A stretch of 36,811 nt of DNA from assembly GCA_000961595.1 (NCBI GenBank), contig LADO01000038.1, positions 1-36,811 of the forward strand. Direction: 5' to 3'. Source of the stretch: Peptococcaceae bacterium BRH_c4b (lineage in GTDB: Bacteria; Bacillota; Desulfotomaculia; Desulfotomaculales; Desulfocucumaceae). This document shows, in pieces, positions 1-36,811 of the stretch. The number at the start of each line of letters is the position of its first letter. The stretch's first letter is position 1. The translations under genes were made by a program, and so were the position numbers. The notes under the pieces were generated by a model that worked only from the letters and a program-made list of their open reading frames with translations, did no database searches and had not been told where the DNA came from.

Positions 1-131
1 GGGGGATGCTTTTTCCGATGGTAGTACGTAGCTTCATTTACGCCGACAATACGCAGCACGAAGGCTGCTGGGTATCCCCGGTCAATCCACTTATCGGCTA
101 TTTCTATCCTGTCTGAAAGCCGGGGTTTTTC
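1..131 (-). CDS. IS3-type transposase OrfB, N-terminal part only
   Basis: Minus-strand frame that is -1 relative to orfA, open from the frameshift heptamer to the window edge (43 codons). The visible residues include IADKWIDRGYPAAF and VNEATYYHRKK, a pattern typical of the start of IS3-family OrfB just before the HTH_21/rve region. OrfB supplies the DDE integrase core, but that part lies outside the window. It is normally made as an OrfAB fusion by ribosomal frameshifting. No independent start codon with a ribosome binding site is visible, which fits fusion expression. Confidence 0.7.
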
Positions 132-439
132 TTTTTTATTAGGTCCCTCATAATGGCGATTTCAAGGTCTTTTTCGCCAAGGAGTTTTTTAAGTTTATCG
201 TTTTCCTTTTCTAACTGTTTAAACTCTTGATTTGAGGGTATATAAACAGCTGTTTTCTTTGCTTCGCCGTTTGTGTGCTGCCATGCTTTGTGTTTCGACT
301 GGCTAATCCAGCCGTATAGGGTCTTTGGGCTTATTTCATGGCGCTTGGCCACTTGCAAGACGTTTCCGATTTCTTGAGCTTCTTGAATTAGTTGATCTTT
401 AAATTCTTTTGGGTATCTTTTACTTTTCATGTTTGTCAT
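104..439 (-). CDS. IS3-type transposase OrfA
   Basis: 111-residue protein. Residues about 5-50 form the HTH_Tnp_1 type helix-turn-helix (KRYPKEFKDQLIQEA, then SPKTLYGWI), which binds the element's terminal repeats. Residues about 70-100 form a leucine-rich coiled coil (LEKENDKLKKLLGEKDLEIA) used for multimerisation. The start ATG at 437-439 follows AGGAGGGA with about 8 nt spacing. The reading frame ends just after a canonical -1 slippery heptamer, so the stop is the zero-frame product of programmed frameshifting. Length and domain order are normal for IS3 OrfA. Confidence 0.85.
   Translation of the reverse strand: MTNMKSKRYPKEFKDQLIQEAQEIGNVLQVAKRHEISPKTLYGWISQSKHKAWQHTNGEAKKTAVYIPSNQEFKQLEKENDKLKKLLGEKDLEIAIMRDLIKKKNPGFQTG
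131..137 (-). promoter_or_regulatory. programmed -1 frameshift heptamer AAAAAAG
   Basis: On the minus strand the orfA codons read ATA AAA AAG, giving the A AAA AAG slippery heptamer in the correct phase. A -1 slip enters a frame that is open into orfB. This is the standard IS3-family signal for making the OrfAB transposase. Confidence 0.75.
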
Positions 440-522
440 GACTTGCTTATCCCTCCTGTTTTTAAGTTTATATCATTTGGGGATAAGACTCAAATTCCTT
501 AAAGGGGCTAAATAGAAATCCT

Positions 523-915
523 TCACCCACCGGGCAATGCCGGCGTGGATAATTTTCCGATACTTTTGCATAGACTCAACTCGGCCAACTCCGAGATCCG
601 ATTGTCAGCAATTAAATCCGCCCATTCCTCGGCCTCCGATGTATAGTCCTGCCGGTCAACAGGTACCTGCTCAAGCCCCAGGTGCTGCGCTGCCAACAGA
701 CGCCCGTGGCCGCGAACTATAAAACCGCTTCTGGTCGAAACGGTTATTGGTGCTCGCCAACCCTGGGCTTTTATTATCTTGGCCAGCAGGTGTATTTGGT
801 TTTCTGGGTGCTGGTTGGGGTTTCGGGGGTTGGGGATTAAGGCTGCTGTATCAACGATTTCGTCGAAAGCGCAGTGTATTGAGATGTTGGTTGTTTCTAT
901 GAGCACGCTCTTCAC
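523..915 (-). pseudogene. ParB/Srx-type domain protein, 3'-truncated prophage remnant
   Basis: Residues about 15-110 match the ParB N-terminal (ParB/sulfiredoxin) fold: LIPNPRNPNQHPENQI, then IKAQGWRAPITVS, then the signature VRGHGRLLAAQHLG, then EAEEWADLIADNRISELAE. In phages this domain usually heads a longer protein, often fused to a DNA methylase or placed before terminase genes. Here family-like sequence stops at ISELAEL, followed by about 18 unrelated residues and a stop, 31 bp from the end of the IS. I read it as truncated by the IS or by an earlier deletion. The start is GTG (915, or the GTG nine bases further in). It is probably non-functional as a complete protein. Confidence 0.65.
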
Positions 916-942
916 CTTCTCTCAGGCTTTGATGTCAAAAAG

Positions 943-960
943 AAAAGAGCCTTCCAGCTC
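943..960 (-). terminator. probable terminator after the tautomerase gene
   Basis: The minus strand reads GAGC-TGGAAG-GCTC followed by TTTTCTTTTT, a short hairpin with a T-rich tail just after the stop of the 4-OT-like gene. The stem is short, so confidence is moderate. Confidence 0.4.
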
Positions 961-967
961 CAATAAC

Positions 968-1159
968 TCATCTCTTCTGCATATTTACCAACAGTTCCGC
1001 TCCCACGCCCACATCTTCCGGGTTATTTTCCTTAATTAGGGTAATAAACTTTTCCTGCGGAATATTTGTTATCTTACTTGCTGCAGCAGAAAACTCTTGC
1101 ACTAGCTGCTCCTTTTGTTCTTTATTCATCTTTGGACCCTCAAAGATAATTACTGGCAT
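968..1159 (-). CDS. 4-oxalocrotonate tautomerase-like protein
   Basis: 63-residue protein of the 4-OT/tautomerase superfamily. After removal of Met the N-terminal residue is proline (MPVIIFEGP), the catalytic base of the family. The rest fits the beta-alpha-beta fold: KMNKEQKEQLVQEFSAAAS as the long helix, then IPQEKFITLIKENNPEDVGVGAE. The length is normal for the small tautomerases. The ribosome binding site AAAGGAG is 9 nt before the ATG. The substrate cannot be told from sequence. It lies downstream of a structured leader that is also found before the neighbouring Spo0E-like gene. A cytosolic, possibly hexameric enzyme is expected from the family. Confidence 0.8.
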   Translation of the reverse strand: MPVIIFEGPKMNKEQKEQLVQEFSAAASKITNIPQEKFITLIKENNPEDVGVGAELLVNMQKR

Positions 1160-1227
1160 TGCCGCAACACTCCTTTAATTTTTACGTAAACTTTCGACTT
1201 AAAGAAGTCCATATCCTGCTGAAAAAT

Positions 1228-1374
1228 AAGCAGGCCCCCGTCTTCCTCCCCCGAATATTCCCAGTGGATGTGTCGCCAGGCCTGCTCTGAAAGTTAAATA
1301 CAGTATAACATCATTACAACCTAGGCGGCTCTCTATTAAGACCGAACCATCAATGAAAAGAGCCCGGAGGCTCT
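1228..1374 (-). ncRNA. structured leader, copy 1 (before the tautomerase gene)
   Basis: The minus-strand region between the Spo0E-like gene and the tautomerase gene is clearly homologous to 1581-1757. Shared parts, in minus-strand order, are: the hairpin AGAGCC-tccg-GGCTCT, GGTTCGGTCTTA, a CCGCC block, an AT-rich stretch with a -10-like TATACT, then a terminator-like hairpin whose arms are AGCAGGC (1280-1286) and GCCTGCT (1229-1235), closed around the conserved GCGACACATCCACTGGGAAT and followed by a T-rich tail. No known riboswitch family was recognised. It resembles an attenuator-type 5' leader. Confidence 0.5.
1358..1374 (-). terminator. terminator of the Spo0E-like gene
   Basis: AGAGCC-tccg-GGCTCT followed by TTTTC on the minus strand. 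The first base pairs overlap the stop codon of the Spo0E-like gene. The same hairpin sits at 1741-1757 after the preceding gene. Confidence 0.6.
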
Positions 1375-1546
1375 ACTTTTCTTTTTTATCCTTCAACAAC
1401 CTATAATACTCATTCAATACCTTGTTTAGTTCCTGGCTCGACCTGATAATCTCCGGGTCAGTCAGCTCCTTACTATCCGCCTCACCGTGCAGCTTGTTGC
1501 GCAGCTCATCGATCAGTTTTAGTATTGCCTCTATGTCCTTCGGCAT
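1373..1546 (-). CDS. Spo0E-like aspartyl-phosphate phosphatase
   Basis: A 57-residue protein with the Spo0E family layout: an N-terminal helix (IEAILKLIDELRNKLH), a short turn with LTDPEII, and a second helix with the signature SSQELNKVLNEYYRLL, equivalent to the SQELD motif that inserts into the phosphorylation site of response regulators. Family members dephosphorylate Spo0A~P and so delay or block sporulation. The usual motif Asp is Asn here (SQELN). The start ATG (1544-1546) follows GGAGG with 7 nt spacing. It is preceded by a structured leader (1581-1757) and followed by a terminator. It is embedded among prophage remnants, so it may have been brought in by the phage. The function is inferred from the motif alone. 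Confidence 0.75.
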   Translation of the reverse strand: MPKDIEAILKLIDELRNKLHGEADSKELTDPEIIRSSQELNKVLNEYYRLLKDKKEK

Positions 1547-1580
1547 ATGTCCACCTCCGGGGTTAGTATACCCGGAAATA

Positions 1581-1757
1581 AAAGCAGGCCCCCGTTTCCC
1601 TCCCCTGGATTTTCCCGGTGAAGTTTCCTCCCTCGAGCATTCCCAGTTGATGTGTCGCTAAGCCTGCTTTGGATATTATATGCATCATAACCAGAAGCCG
1701 CCACCTGGGCGGCTCCCATAAGACCGCACCATAAAAAGAAAAGAGCCCGGAGGCTCT
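1581..1757 (-). ncRNA. structured leader, copy 2 (before the Spo0E-like gene)
   Basis: Minus-strand leader ending just before the ribosome binding site of the Spo0E-like gene. It contains, in order, the hairpin AGAGCC/GGCTCT (1741-1757), GGTGCGGTCTTA, a strong hairpin AGCCGCC-CAGG-TGGCGGCT (about 1695-1714), a TATAAT box, and a long terminator-like hairpin with arms AAAGCAGGC and GCCTGCTTT (1582-1669) followed by TATTT. Inside the last hairpin lies GCGACACATCAACTGGGAAT, nearly identical to copy 1, while the purine-rich remainder has diverged. Conservation of arms and apical block with a variable middle suggests selection on RNA structure. It could instead be a dispersed repeat. Confidence 0.5.
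1741..1757 (-). terminator. terminator after the sigma-like pseudogene
   Basis: The same AGAGCC-tccg-GGCTCT hairpin as at 1358-1374, followed by TTTTCTTTTT on the minus strand. It ends transcription from the prophage regulator and starts the leader repeat. Confidence 0.55.
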
Positions 1758-1911
1758 TATTGTAGCTTTGCTTATTTAAACTGCAATCTATTTTTTAATA
1801 TTTGGTCCCAATAATAACGGCAAAAGGAAGGTTTTTCCTGTATAGTGAAAGCCAGCCATGTTTCTCTCGCCGGTCCCCTTGGGCGATGTTTCGCTAACCG
1901 GCCATGCTCCT

Positions 1912-2374
1912 TCAACAAACCCCTTCACTATATGTTTGCTTTCGTATGGCAAACTGAATTTTTTTCTCTGCTCTTTTTATATAACTCTGGACAGAAGCTT
2001 TTTTGCATTTGAGTATAGTAGCCGCCTGACCAAACGAATACCCCTGCCCCCGAACCAGCCAATAAGATTCCCTTTCCCTCTTTGTTAGGCACTTAAGCAA
2101 TCCTCCAGTAAATCTATCGCTTCCTGAGAAGCGGACGGTGGTGGGGTCTGCGCATTAATGCTTCTGGCCATAACCTGCGGGTCCAACGGTATTTCCCGCT
2201 TCATCTTTGGCCAACGGGCCACAGACCATTTCGTCCCCGGTATCCTCCCGGTCTATGGATCTCGATGGCATACTGCGTATCCGACACCATACTGCCATAT
2301 TCCACAGGCACCACCTTGGCCCGGCACAGTGTCCCCAATGACTGCCGGTACTCTTTGATTAAATCTTGCACCAC
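1912..2374 (-). pseudogene. phage sigma-like/ArpU-type transcription regulator, two frameshifts
   Basis: Three consecutive frames reassemble one phage-type regulator. The first (from GTG 2374, site AGGGGG upstream) gives VQDLIKEYRQSL ... MVSDTQYAIE. The second gives TGRIPGTKWSVARW, then KREIPLDPQVMA ... ASQEAIDLLEDCLS. The third gives LTKRERESYWLVRGQGYSFGQAATIL, then KKASVQSYIKRAEKKI, a region-4-like helix-turn-helix. Shifts fall near 2250 and near 2093. Intact relatives are late-gene regulators just upstream of packaging genes. The last part alone could be read from TTG 2098-2100, but GGAGGA abuts that codon, so a real start there is doubtful. I treat it as decayed. Confidence 0.65.
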
Positions 2375-2406
2375 TGCCACCCCCTAAAAAATAGAGACCA
2401 GAGCAG

Positions 2407-2577
2407 TTACGCCCTGGCCTCCCGTTTATCCGAGTCAGCCTTCCATGTTGTTTTTATTTCTCCCCAGACTACTTTGCCGTTTTGGACCTTTAGGACCACT
2501 TCGCCATGCTGTAGCCGGTCAATCTCCCCGACCTGTTTCTTTATCTCTGCCGTAAGCAGGTCCGATAGTTTCACCAC
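2407..2577 (-). CDS. YezD-like (DUF2292) small protein
   Basis: 56-residue protein starting GTG at 2575-2577 (or the next GTG) after a G-rich ribosome binding site. It contains EIKKQVGEIDRLQHGEVVLK, then VQNGKVVWGEI, the pattern of the DUF2292/YezD family: one helix, then two strands around a 'V.V..GKV' turn. The function of the family is unknown. It is the gene before the phage-type regulator, and such proteins are common in prophages of this group. The reading frame is intact, unlike its neighbour. Confidence 0.55.
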   Translation of the reverse strand: MVKLSDLLTAEIKKQVGEIDRLQHGEVVLKVQNGKVVWGEIKTTWKADSDKREARA

Positions 2578-2731
2578 CCCACGCACCCCCTGGAAAATTC
2601 TCCGCAGCCATGATATACTGCGGGTATCCTAAACTTTCCGGCTCCGCGAGGGGCTTTTTCTTATTTGTCTACCTCCCCCGATTCTTCCTCCATGATTCCT
2701 TAGCCATGAAATTCCTGACCTTTCGTTCGTT

Positions 2732-2747
2732 GCCCAGATAGCTCAGT
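2732..2747 (+). other. possible tRNA 5' fragment
   Basis: GCCCAGATAGCTCAGT matches the 5' acceptor strand, positions 8-9 and the start of the D stem of a bacterial tRNA (Phe-like). The match stops there and no D loop, anticodon arm or 3' half follows. It could be the scar of a tRNA-targeted integration or a chance match of 16 nt. Confidence 0.3.
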
Positions 2748-2752
2748 TTGCC

Positions 2753-2781
2753 TTTACAAAAAATTAGTAATGTGTTAAAGT
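2753..2781 (+). promoter_or_regulatory. candidate sigma-A promoter for the zinc-ribbon gene
   Basis: TTTACA (2753-2758), a 17-nt spacer, then TAAAGT (2776-2781), about 35 nt before the start codon of the 56-residue zinc-ribbon protein. The -35 matches 5/6 and the -10 4/6 of consensus. Confidence 0.4.
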
Positions 2782-2815
2782 TAGCAGTTCATTAATTTAA
2801 TTAGGAGGTTCAATC

Positions 2816-2986
2816 ATTAGAAAAAAGAGTTTTAATAAAAAAACTACGGAAGATAGATCATTTAAACCAAGAACTTTCGTTGCAAGTTGTTCTTCCTGCG
2901 GTAAACAGTATATTCTGCCATTTCAACCGGACATTAATCAAAATCTGATATGCGTTGAGTGTTTACAAAAACAAAAGAACAACTAA
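2816..2986 (+). CDS. small zinc-ribbon protein, probable ATT start
   Basis: 56-residue, lysine-rich protein: a basic N-terminus (RKKSFNKKTTEDRSFKPR) then CSSCGKQYILPF ... NLICVECLQ. The CxxC ... CxxC pair spaced about 21 residues is a zinc ribbon like those in small nucleic-acid-binding proteins. AGGAGG (2803-2808) is 7 nt from ATT at 2816. No ATG, GTG or TTG lies in frame between the upstream stop and this point, so ATT (or ATC three bases earlier) is the only possible start. The gene is on the opposite strand to its neighbours. Function unknown. Confidence 0.55.
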   Translation: MRKKSFNKKTTEDRSFKPRTFVASCSSCGKQYILPFQPDINQNLICVECLQKQKNN

Positions 2987-3012
2987 TTTCTAACCTTTTA
3001 CCAAAACACGCA

Positions 3013-3279
3013 CTACCCCGCCTCCCGTTCCTCCCAGGCTGTAAACGTGGCCACCAGCCACCCCATATTTGTCAATCTCACCGTGGCCCACAGCCAGGGG
3101 GTGACCTCCAGCCAGCCGGCACTGGTGTGATCCAGCACCAGGCCGACGGCCAGAGCTCCGTTTAGCTTCCCGGTCAGCACATTGATTAGCTTGGTTCGCT
3201 TTATTTCAATTCCGGACCGCTCCTGCCAGCGCTGCCAGGCATGGTCTGAAATAATAATTTCATGGTGCCGCTGCTTCAT
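3013..3279 (-). CDS. hypothetical phage-type protein
   Basis: 88 residues, not assigned to a named family. The first part (IIISDHAWQRWQERSG, then KRTKLINVL) resembles small prophage proteins with an 'ISDHA..R..ER' opening. The second part is a run of beta-prone segments (WLEVTPWLWATVRLTNMGWLVATF) that looks like a small antiparallel sheet. No transmembrane segment, signal peptide or Cys pair. It follows the RuvC-like fragment on the same strand by 41 bp, as in a phage operon. The start ATG has only a weak, distant G-rich site. Confidence 0.45.
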   Translation of the reverse strand: MKQRHHEIIISDHAWQRWQERSGIEIKRTKLINVLTGKLNGALAVGLVLDHTSAGWLEVTPWLWATVRLTNMGWLVATFTAWEEREAG

Positions 3280-3320
3280 CCCGGCATGGTGGCCACCCCC
3301 CTCACCGCCATGGAACTATA

Positions 3321-3563
3321 TCAACCAGCCTTCTTTGCCCGCCGCCGGCCACTGCCATCGTTCCGTAGCTTGTCAATCACCTCGTGTTGGAATGCCGTCA
3401 ACCCCTCAACATACAGGCCAGGGTGATAGGCCTCCCCGATCTTGGCCAAGACATACGCATCAGCCTCGTCGTTGGTCCCGAATTCTTTATTCCAGCGCTT
3501 GTATATCGCCACGGCCATATCTTCTTTCTTTGCCGTGCCTTTCCCGGTGGCGAACTTTTTCAC
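3321..3563 (-). pseudogene. RuvC-like Holliday junction resolvase, C-terminal fragment
   Basis: 80 residues resembling the C-terminal part of phage/bacterial RuvC-like nucleases: KKFATGKGTAKKEDMAVAIYK, then the acidic DEADAYVLAKIGEA carrying the last metal-binding Asp of the RNase H fold. The N-terminal catalytic half is missing. Upstream on the minus strand the frames hold stops and join directly to the broken end of prkA. It is therefore a remnant sitting at the prkA/prophage junction. Confidence 0.55.
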
Positions 3564-3612
3564 TTCCTGCTAAAAGCCCTGAAAACCCAGGCGGTTTCTA
3601 TGATATATTTAG

Positions 3613-4410
3613 TTAACCAATCCGTTGTATGGTTCTGTGCATCTCCTGGAATTCCATTAACCCACGATTGGCGATGTTTAGCTCACCATCAAAACGGTAC
3701 GCCCTGGGATCTGATTCGGAACCATACTCGGTTATGGTGGAAAAGTCTACACTACCCGTCAAATCTGCTATATCTTGCGACTTGGGATCCGAGGGAGTAA
3801 AGGTTCCGATACCTGCCCGGTTATCCTCGGATAGGAATACCCTTTCTACTATAACATTTTCAATTCTACCACCGTGCTCCGCTTCCACCATCATTCTGCA
3901 GGAGGGACAGAGTTCACCTTCGATGTAAATTCCGTATTCATCACTTATTTCCTGTCTCAAGTCCTTTGGAATCAAGTGCAGGGGTTCTTCATGCATGGGA
4001 CAGCCCTTTATAGCATATATCGCTCCGGCACCGGTATAGCTGAACTTTTCCAGGCCTCTTTTCATCATTGCCACCAGGGTGGATTTCCCCCCGCTGACGG
4101 GACCCATTAACAGAAGGATCCGCTTACGCACATCAAGCCGTCTGGCTGCAGGGTGGAAATATTCCTCAACCAGCTTTTCCAAAGTTTTATCCAGGCCAAA
4201 AATTTCATTAACAAAAAAATTGTACCTCTTGCCCCCGTCTTCCAGTTGCTCAGCCCCTGCGTCTTTGATCATCTCGTATATTCTGGAGTGGGCTAACTGA
4301 CATACATACGGCTTTTCCCTGACGATTCCCAAATAATCCTGAAAGGTCCCCTCCCAGGCCAATTGTTTTTCCAGCGAACGATGTTCCTCAAGCCTTTTGA
4401 AAAAATTCAT
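3613..4410 (-). pseudogene. prkA: PrkA serine protein kinase, 3'-truncated
   Basis: 265 residues of the PrkA AAA domain: EGTFQDYLGIV near the N-terminus, Walker A GPVSGGKST (103-111), the zinc-type pair CPSC, and the family-specific TITEYGSESDPRAYRFDGELNIANRGLMEFQEM. Full PrkA is about 630 residues. Here it breaks right after EFQEM and continues with HRTIQRIG and a stop, so the second half (including the kinase-like C-terminus) is gone. The start ATG (4408-4410) follows AAAGGAG with 9 nt spacing, so the 5' end looks intact. PrkA works with YhbH and SpoVR in sporulation; those partners are not in the window. The left break abuts prophage remains, pointing to insertion or deletion through the gene. 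Confidence 0.85.
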
Positions 4411-4846
4411 CACCACTCACTCCTTTCTTTGGCAACAAATTAAACCCACCAAACACCAGGTTATACCCCCATGCCAAAAGAATACTACATTATATGCCGT
4501 CCCCCCGGAAAGAAGACTCCATCCCCTCTCTACAAATATGAAAAAAACGCCAATTTCGACAACTGGCGTAAGGTAATAAGATTAATCTTTATATTACTTA
4601 TAATTCAAAAAAATTTAACTGATTCACACAGTAGTGAATTCCCTGCATTTTATTTGATTTGTTAAAAAATCCTAGCCGCCCCCGCAAGTCAGTCCTCCTG
4701 GTCATGCAGAACCAATCTCAGCATCTCTTTACATCCTTCCAATCCACCGGCCACCCCACTGCCGCTTGAAAAGAAATAAGCAGGTGTCACGCCTTACCGG
4801 CTAACCCAATATAATAGCAATAAATAACAACAAAGGAGGAAACATT
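4411..4846. other. intergenic region before prkA and the YjcZ-like gene
   Basis: It contains the prkA ribosome binding site, a CATATAAT box on the minus strand (4489-4496) that resembles a sigma-E -10 but lacks a convincing -35, the duplicated ylzJ tail (4541-4660), and a TATAAT (4810-4815) before the YjcZ-like gene without a good -35. No other gene seen. Confidence 0.4.
4541..4660 (-). repeat. duplicated ylzJ 3' end plus terminator (copy A)
   Basis: Nearly identical to 6090-6199 apart from a 9-nt indel and scattered substitutions. On the minus strand it holds the last codons of ylzJ (NQIKCREF, two Thr, Val, stop) followed by the hairpin ACGCCA/TGGCGT and a T run. Identity ends at the same codon on the coding side. 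The pair brackets a 1.4-kb island (4661-6089). Confidence 0.75.
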
Positions 4847-6408: not shown

Positions 6409-7250
6409 TGCAGGGGCACCTCTTTCCCTTTCTTCCATTCCTCGATCATATGTTTTATTTTGGCAACCGCCTGGCCCAGTGCACCCACCTCGTCGATAAG
6501 GCCCTTGTCCACAGCCTCTTTGCCAATTAAAACCGTTCCAATATCCCGGGCCAGTTCACCCGTTCTGAACATAAGCTCCCGGAATGTTTCTTCCTTAACC
6601 TTTGAGTGACGGGTTACAAAGCGTACCACCCGGTCCTGCATTTTGTCAAGATATTCGTATGTCTGCGGAACGCCTATGACCAGACCGTTCAAACGAATGG
6701 GATGGATAGTCATACTGGCGGTTTCTGCAATAAAGCTGAAACTTGCCGCACAGGCCACGGGTACGCCGATACTATGCCCTCCCCCCAGCACAATGGAAAC
6801 CGTCGGCTTGGACATGCTGGCGATCATTTCCGCTATAGCGAGCCCTGCCTCCACGTCCCCGCCCACAGTGTTTAATATAATCAGCACACCCTCTATCTCA
6901 TTGGCCTGTTCCAGGGCCACCAGTTGAGGGATGACATGCTCATATTTGGTGGTTTTATTCTGAGGCGGCAGCACCAGATGTCCTTCAATTTGCCCAACTA
7001 TACTCAAACAGTGTATATTGCTTTTTATTTCCGGCAGCGGACTGGCGCCCAGTTCCCTGATGGCTTCCAAACTACCTCCCTTGGACCGTCCCTGCACCCG
7101 GCGGGGGACCCTGGGGCATCCTTCGTCGTTGGGGTTATCGGGATCAACGGGGCATTCCGGGTCGTGCTCCGGTATGGTAGCGGGATCCGGTTCGATTTCC
7201 GGTGACTGGTCATGAAATTTTTGCTTTTCATTATTTGTTCTGTCAGACAT
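6405..7250 (-). CDS. tepA: TepA-type ClpP-fold serine protease
   Basis: 281 residues. Residues 1-70 are a charged, proline/aspartate-rich tail typical of TepA/YmfB and absent from ClpP. The ClpP-like domain follows, with [17 protein letters not shown], the nucleophile in GGGHSIGVP (Ser160) and His183 in TIHPIR. Clp ATPase partners are not expected. In Bacillus TepA is linked to protein export and, as YmfB, to small acid-soluble spore protein turnover. GGGAGA precedes the ATG by about 10 nt. It lies downstream of rnj but a strong terminator at 7401-7440 separates them, so it may have its own promoter in the 200-bp gap. Confidence 0.85.
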
Positions 7251-36648: not shown

Positions 36649-36811
36649 CCGAAACAATCCTCACATCAGCGTCAAACGTCAGGCCGAATTATTAAGCATA
36701 AATCGCACTAGCGTTTACCGCAAGCCCCCTGGGCAGAAGCCTATCTCTGATGAGGATTTATTTGTAATGCGTCGGATTGATGAGATTCATACGGCTCACC
36801 CCACATGGGGT
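36605..36811 (+). CDS. IS3-type transposase OrfB, N-terminal part
   Basis: Open frame continuing to the window edge, +1 relative to orfA: LKKLSDQTGRKDFVDRNNP, then ISVKRQAELLSINRTSVYRKP, the HTH_21 opening of IS150/IS3 OrfB, then the IHTAHPTWG that precedes the DDE core. The -1 frame after the A9 run hits a stop at once, so expression needs a +1 or -2 shift, RNA polymerase slippage on A9, or independent initiation; otherwise this copy is broken. Confidence 0.65.
   Translation, partial: MKKLSDQTGRKDFVDRNNPHISVKRQAELLSINRTSVYRKPPGQKPISDEDLFVMRRIDEIHTAHPTWG

Follow-up and report, generated by a model that had tools for sequence, protein, structure and literature searches.

The window, i.e. the whole stretch of DNA analysed here (36,811 nucleotides; contig C63 in its entirety, ending at 36811), derives from Peptococcaceae bacterium BRH_c4b, and its left 4.4 kb (1-4416) looks like a prophage remnant. 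A hairpin RNA of ~60 nt with a conserved inner loop occurs here in three copies (t0, t1 and t2), and a fourth (t3) is found in a sister species; P1 denotes the outer stem and P2 the inner hairpin. The features are:

104-439: IS-type orfA (transposase fragment), at the contig end beside the prophage-like remnant
523-915: ParB/methyltransferase-like fragment
946-961, minus strand: terminator-like hairpin, 3' of the tautomerase gene
968-1159, minus strand: tautomerase gene, 63 aa, start ~60 nt past the t1 tail (Tautomerase PF01361, E 1.6e-8)
1222-1288, minus strand: RNA copy t1, 5' of the tautomerase gene; P1 arms 1286-1278 and 1237-1229, 5' loop strand ACACA, P2 hairpin, 3' loop strand GGAAGA, T-rich tail 1228-1222
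1302-1310, minus strand: extended -10-like TGT-TATACT 5' of t1, identified from sequence
1359-1374, minus strand: intrinsic terminator-like hairpin, 3' of the Spo0E-like gene and 5' of t1
1373-1546, minus strand: Spo0E-like gene, 57 aa, start ~30 nt past the t2 tail (SpoOE-like PF09388, E 3.4e-12)
1576-1670, minus strand: RNA copy t2, 5' of the Spo0E-like gene; built as t1 with a 28-nt insertion in P2, T-rich tail 1582-1576
1667-1691, minus strand: promoter-like block GTTATNNNGCATATAATATNCAAAG of t2, with -10-like TATAAT at 1680-1675; also present in t3
1741-1758, minus strand: intrinsic terminator-like hairpin AAGAGCCTCCGGGCTCTT, 5' of t2
1843-1905, minus strand: diverged RNA copy t0, core 1850-1903; P1 arms 1903-1896 and 1857-1850 (8/8 pairs), loop strands AAACA and GAGAAA, P2 arms 1886-1882 and 1871-1867, without T-rich tail
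1912-2100, minus strand: C-terminal part of a phage-type sigma factor/positive control factor; t0 starts a few bases past its stop
2380-1912: frames of a split phage sigma-type regulator
3321-3563: RuvC-like fragment
3613-4416: protein with a match to phrog_22605
Sister species (the sole other genome of the genus examined), G001:C124:42406-42471, equal to L042 6472-6407: RNA copy t3

t1 and t2 share direct repeats (1243-1309 and 1625-1691, 79%; 1221-1266 and 1575-1620, 83%), their local alignment score is 58 as compared to a maximum of 29 among 500 dinucleotide shuffles, and their fold z-scores versus shuffles are -3.9 (t1) and -5.5 (t2). On the minus strand AGCAGGC, GCGACACATC.ACTGGGAAT, GGGGAGG, GGGGGCCTGCT and a T-rich tail are common to both, and the closing stem of each is AGCAGG/CCTGCT, followed by the T-rich tail. 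Repeats and shuffle scores thus confirm the initial annotation, which had described two minus-strand leaders with common arms, the GCGACACATC.ACTGGGAAT block and an AGCAGGC...GCCTGCT stem with a T tail; the diverged middle that it had noted corresponds to the 28-nt insertion in t2. This insertion resembles an internal duplication of the hairpin and GGGAGGRAAC (repeat family D2). An apparent tandem duplication of ~28 nt, consisting of a hairpin arm and GGGAGGRAAC, can be seen inside t2 at 1590-1645. The terminator 5' of each leader is repeated, too (1352-1374 and 1735-1757, 96%).

The case for a folded RNA rests on t0, as t1-t3 alone are uninformative on covariation, i.e. the observed value was reached in 341 of 500 shuffles. 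When the window was scanned with a covariance model built from t1-t3 (R1), a weak match was obtained at 1905-1843 (14 bits, E 0.1-0.19), just 3' of the stop codon of the sigma-like gene. This match is t0, the third window copy, which had been overlooked in the earlier description. t0 lies in exact register with t1-t3, i.e. it has an 8-bp P1 (8/8), a 2/1 spacer, 5 x 6 loop strands and P2. The P1 pairs are GC CG AU GC GC C/UG C/UG UG in t1-t3 and GU GC CG CG GU GC UG UG in t0, and according to the pair table t0 carries five two-sided compensatory changes, four in P1 and one in P2. The third P2 pair, CG in both t1 and t3, reads GC in t0, where the adjacent A.G mismatch has become CG. The 5' loop strand, in contrast, differs in only one base (ACACA in t1-t3 vs. 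AAACA in t0, consensus AMACA) and the 3' loop strand by purine changes only (GGAAGA/GGGAAA vs. GAGAAA, consensus GRRARA). Next to the internal loop t0 has C.A in place of the C14-G78 pair, and the z-score of t0's own fold is weak (-0.8 to -1.3).

As to chance, 200 shuffles of the window contained 67 core matches, none of them with stems (random stem rate 1.75e-5), a strict descriptor had no match in 20 Mb of shuffled own-genome sequence, and none of 52 IMG/VR stretches with the core had a P1 above 6/8; the 3' core pattern was loosened by one position once t0 had been seen, and the chance controls include that loosening. Since both stems of t0 are rewritten in register and the loop strands are nearly unchanged, t0 provides strong evidence for a folded RNA, and the existence of a structured RNA domain whose internal loop is fixed is well supported. 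It is thus through t0 that the element shows the two-sided compensatory stem changes of a structured RNA, by which the initial annotation had proposed to distinguish it from a plain dispersed repeat; t1-t3 alone give none, and the t0 pairs around a conserved loop argue against such a repeat. A leader peptide or other coding function was rejected: every copy has an open frame around GACACATC, but a 1-nt indel puts the conserved 3' half of t1 and that of t3 into different frames, and the stops differ.

Patterns and R1, applied to the own genome and 150 relatives, revealed one further close copy, namely t3, the close copies being two in the own genome and one in the sister genome. R1 gave only chance-level matches in ~400 genomes across the phylum (about 500 genomes searched in total), further diverged copies were absent from about 1.0 Mb of own-genome stretches, and narrower searches of IMG/VR, phage and plasmid records, many with exact patterns, yielded no copy. 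As many scans employed exact patterns and R1 at whole-genome scale would miss copies as diverged as t0, diverged homologues may well exist elsewhere. The element does not extend over the family, copies being found at genus level only. In contrast, the earlier statement that no known riboswitch fits holds, as Rfam 15 gave no match in the window at gathering thresholds; permissive thresholds gave only chance-level matches in 950-2000 (E at least 1). No published description of the element was found in literature searches.

Several candidate matches were discarded. The exact core has four matches in genome contigs, all lacking the arms and probably located inside coding sequence, and the 3-mismatch pattern matches in relatives lack the stems, except for L012. 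Low-scoring covariance-model matches were plain terminators (L039, L070 and L072) or read as a histidine-kinase motif (L076), a match within a TetR-type gene (L188:8242) is expected by chance, a viral contig (L086) lacks the 5' half, and the sigma-gene loci of phages AP45 and PG1 do not contain the RNA.

In t1, t2 and t3 P1 is terminator-like, i.e. a GC-rich stem followed by a T-rich tail. The P1 stems are absent from the output of an automatic terminator scan, since the loop that they enclose is larger than the scan allows, and t0, lacking a T tail, shows that the terminator is not common to all copies. The GTTATNNNGCATATAATATNCAAAG block occurs once per genome in the own and the sister genome (at most three mismatches). 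t3 is preceded by a terminator-like hairpin and followed by no gene on the same strand; where it ends, a convergent chemotaxis gene has its stop codon. Farther along the minus strand, the first frame that is of plausible gene size and does not lie opposite another gene is that of a GntR-type regulator, ~2.7 kb away. As t3 shares the block with t2 and yet has no gene downstream, the conserved unit is not the leader of a particular gene.

Based on the -10 block that travels with the RNA in t2 and t3, P1 and the T tail in three copies, and t3 having no gene to regulate, a short independent transcript that is self-terminated through P1 is the best reading, with a probability of about 0.5. Against it, the upstream block of t1 has diverged from that of t2/t3, a two-hexamer scan detected no sigma-70 promoter with a -35 element, P1 escaped the terminator scan, t0 lacks the T tail, and t1 and t2 do lie just 5' of genes. 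The unit that has been moved and conserved would then comprise promoter, RNA and terminator and give rise to a small, structured transcript of ~57-95 nt, in which P1 would enclose the asymmetric internal loop (5' AMACA, 3' GRRARA), P2 would cap it, with a P2 loop that may vary or expand, and P1 would double as intrinsic terminator in t1, t2 and t3. The near-invariant internal loop might be where a protein or some other partner binds, and the RNA would act in trans; effects on Spo0E or tautomerase, if any, would be secondary and due to partial read-through. The 28-nt motif duplicated in t2 would be consistent with such a protein-binding site. Taken together, the element looks like a genus-restricted small self-terminating RNA with its own -10 element that is probably bound by a partner via the conserved loop. 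A 14-mer, TTATACTGTATTTA, is found just 5' of t1 (1302-1310) and ~80 nt 5' of t3 (L042 about 6540-6560), possibly a shared piece of promoter.

Small regulatory RNAs of Gram-positive bacteria with their own promoter and intrinsic terminator are short and intergenic and end in a GC-rich 3' stem and a T tail. The element resembles them in being short and intergenic and in having a -10 element upstream, a GC-rich 3' stem and a T tail, but its terminator stem is closed by the RNA's own 5' end, thus enclosing the whole domain, and its transcribed strand carries no C-rich seed loop.

The alternative that survives best, which we nevertheless consider somewhat unlikely, is a cis-acting leader (riboswitch or attenuator) in the 5' UTRs of the Spo0E-like and tautomerase genes, in which a ligand or protein at the internal loop would set termination at P1. 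The identities of both genes, as given in the initial annotation, are confirmed by PF09388 and PF01361, t1 and t2 lie 30-60 nt 5' of the start codons, P1 is terminator-like, and the conserved asymmetric internal loop is reminiscent of ligand pockets, i.e. the element shares with terminator-type riboswitches and attenuators such a loop, a stem with a T-rich tail and the location of two copies before genes. The downstream gene is inconsistent, however, t3 having none and t0 lying without T tail in the 3' flank of the sigma gene; moreover, no conserved antiterminator pairing is seen and Rfam has no matching family. By inspection, t1 alone has another AGCAGG 3' of the T tail, which t2 and t3 lack. 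No such RNA precedes the relatives of the tautomerase gene in four genomes, two of which belong to the same family (68-69% identical), or those of the Spo0E gene in another 13 genomes of the order, so that the RNA is an addition at the tautomerase and Spo0E genes here. Several Spo0E relatives instead have their own short hairpin and spacer directly 5' of the gene. A consistent 5' UTR position before functionally related genes, or before Spo0E or stress genes, which the initial annotation would have taken as support, was thus not found, and of the suggested attenuator-type RNA the structured RNA stands, owing to the t0 pairs, whereas the inconsistent gene association does not support an attenuator for Spo0E/tautomerase. 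In these relatives (L049, L060 and L059) the short hairpin is combined with a stretch resembling GGNNANACTAAC just 5' of the ribosome site, an arrangement also present at the window gene, downstream of t2 (1549-1575), which might be conserved in the 5' UTRs of this gene family.

A more far-reaching version of the stand-alone transcript, which we regard as rather unlikely, would be a new class of trans-acting or protein-binding RNA from a prophage-derived region, copied as promoter-RNA-terminator unit, with the 5 x 6 loop AMACA/GRRARA as putative binding site and a motif duplicated in t2, possibly titrating an RNA-binding protein.

That the four copies occupy unrelated contexts, with three clustered within 700 nt of prophage-like remnant near the IS-type transposase, might also suggest a mobile or duplicated palindromic element (REP/MITE-like), whose hairpin would matter solely as DNA or for mobility. 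This is quite unlikely given the very low copy number, many copies per genome not being found, the compensatory stem changes around a conserved loop, the T-rich tail on one strand only, and the lack of an identified target duplication or inverted ends.

The antitermination RNAs encoded by the put sites of phage HK022 are short, structured, phage-region RNAs present in several copies upstream of terminators, features that the element shares, but it differs in fold, and phage collections contain nothing that matches it by sequence or descriptor. A put-like RNA that binds RNA polymerase as nascent transcript and suppresses the terminators at 1741-1758, 1359-1374 and 946-961 would agree with the prophage-like region and the intrinsic terminator after each window copy, but is highly improbable as P1 itself is terminator-like in three copies, no homologue occurs in phage records or IMG/VR, and no known operon follows t3.

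If expressed, the element would be an undescribed genus-restricted structured RNA of compact, testable anatomy, with stems of fixed geometry around one conserved internal loop, and an example of a phage-derived region seeding small RNA genes; if not, it is a useful warning against taking a leader-like position, here before two genes, at face value. In the sister species three adjacent small frames (L042 4198-5333, plus strand) have a NINQNG.AN-like C-terminal motif in common (e.g. CKNINQNGVANNSF) and have the look of a small peptide family.
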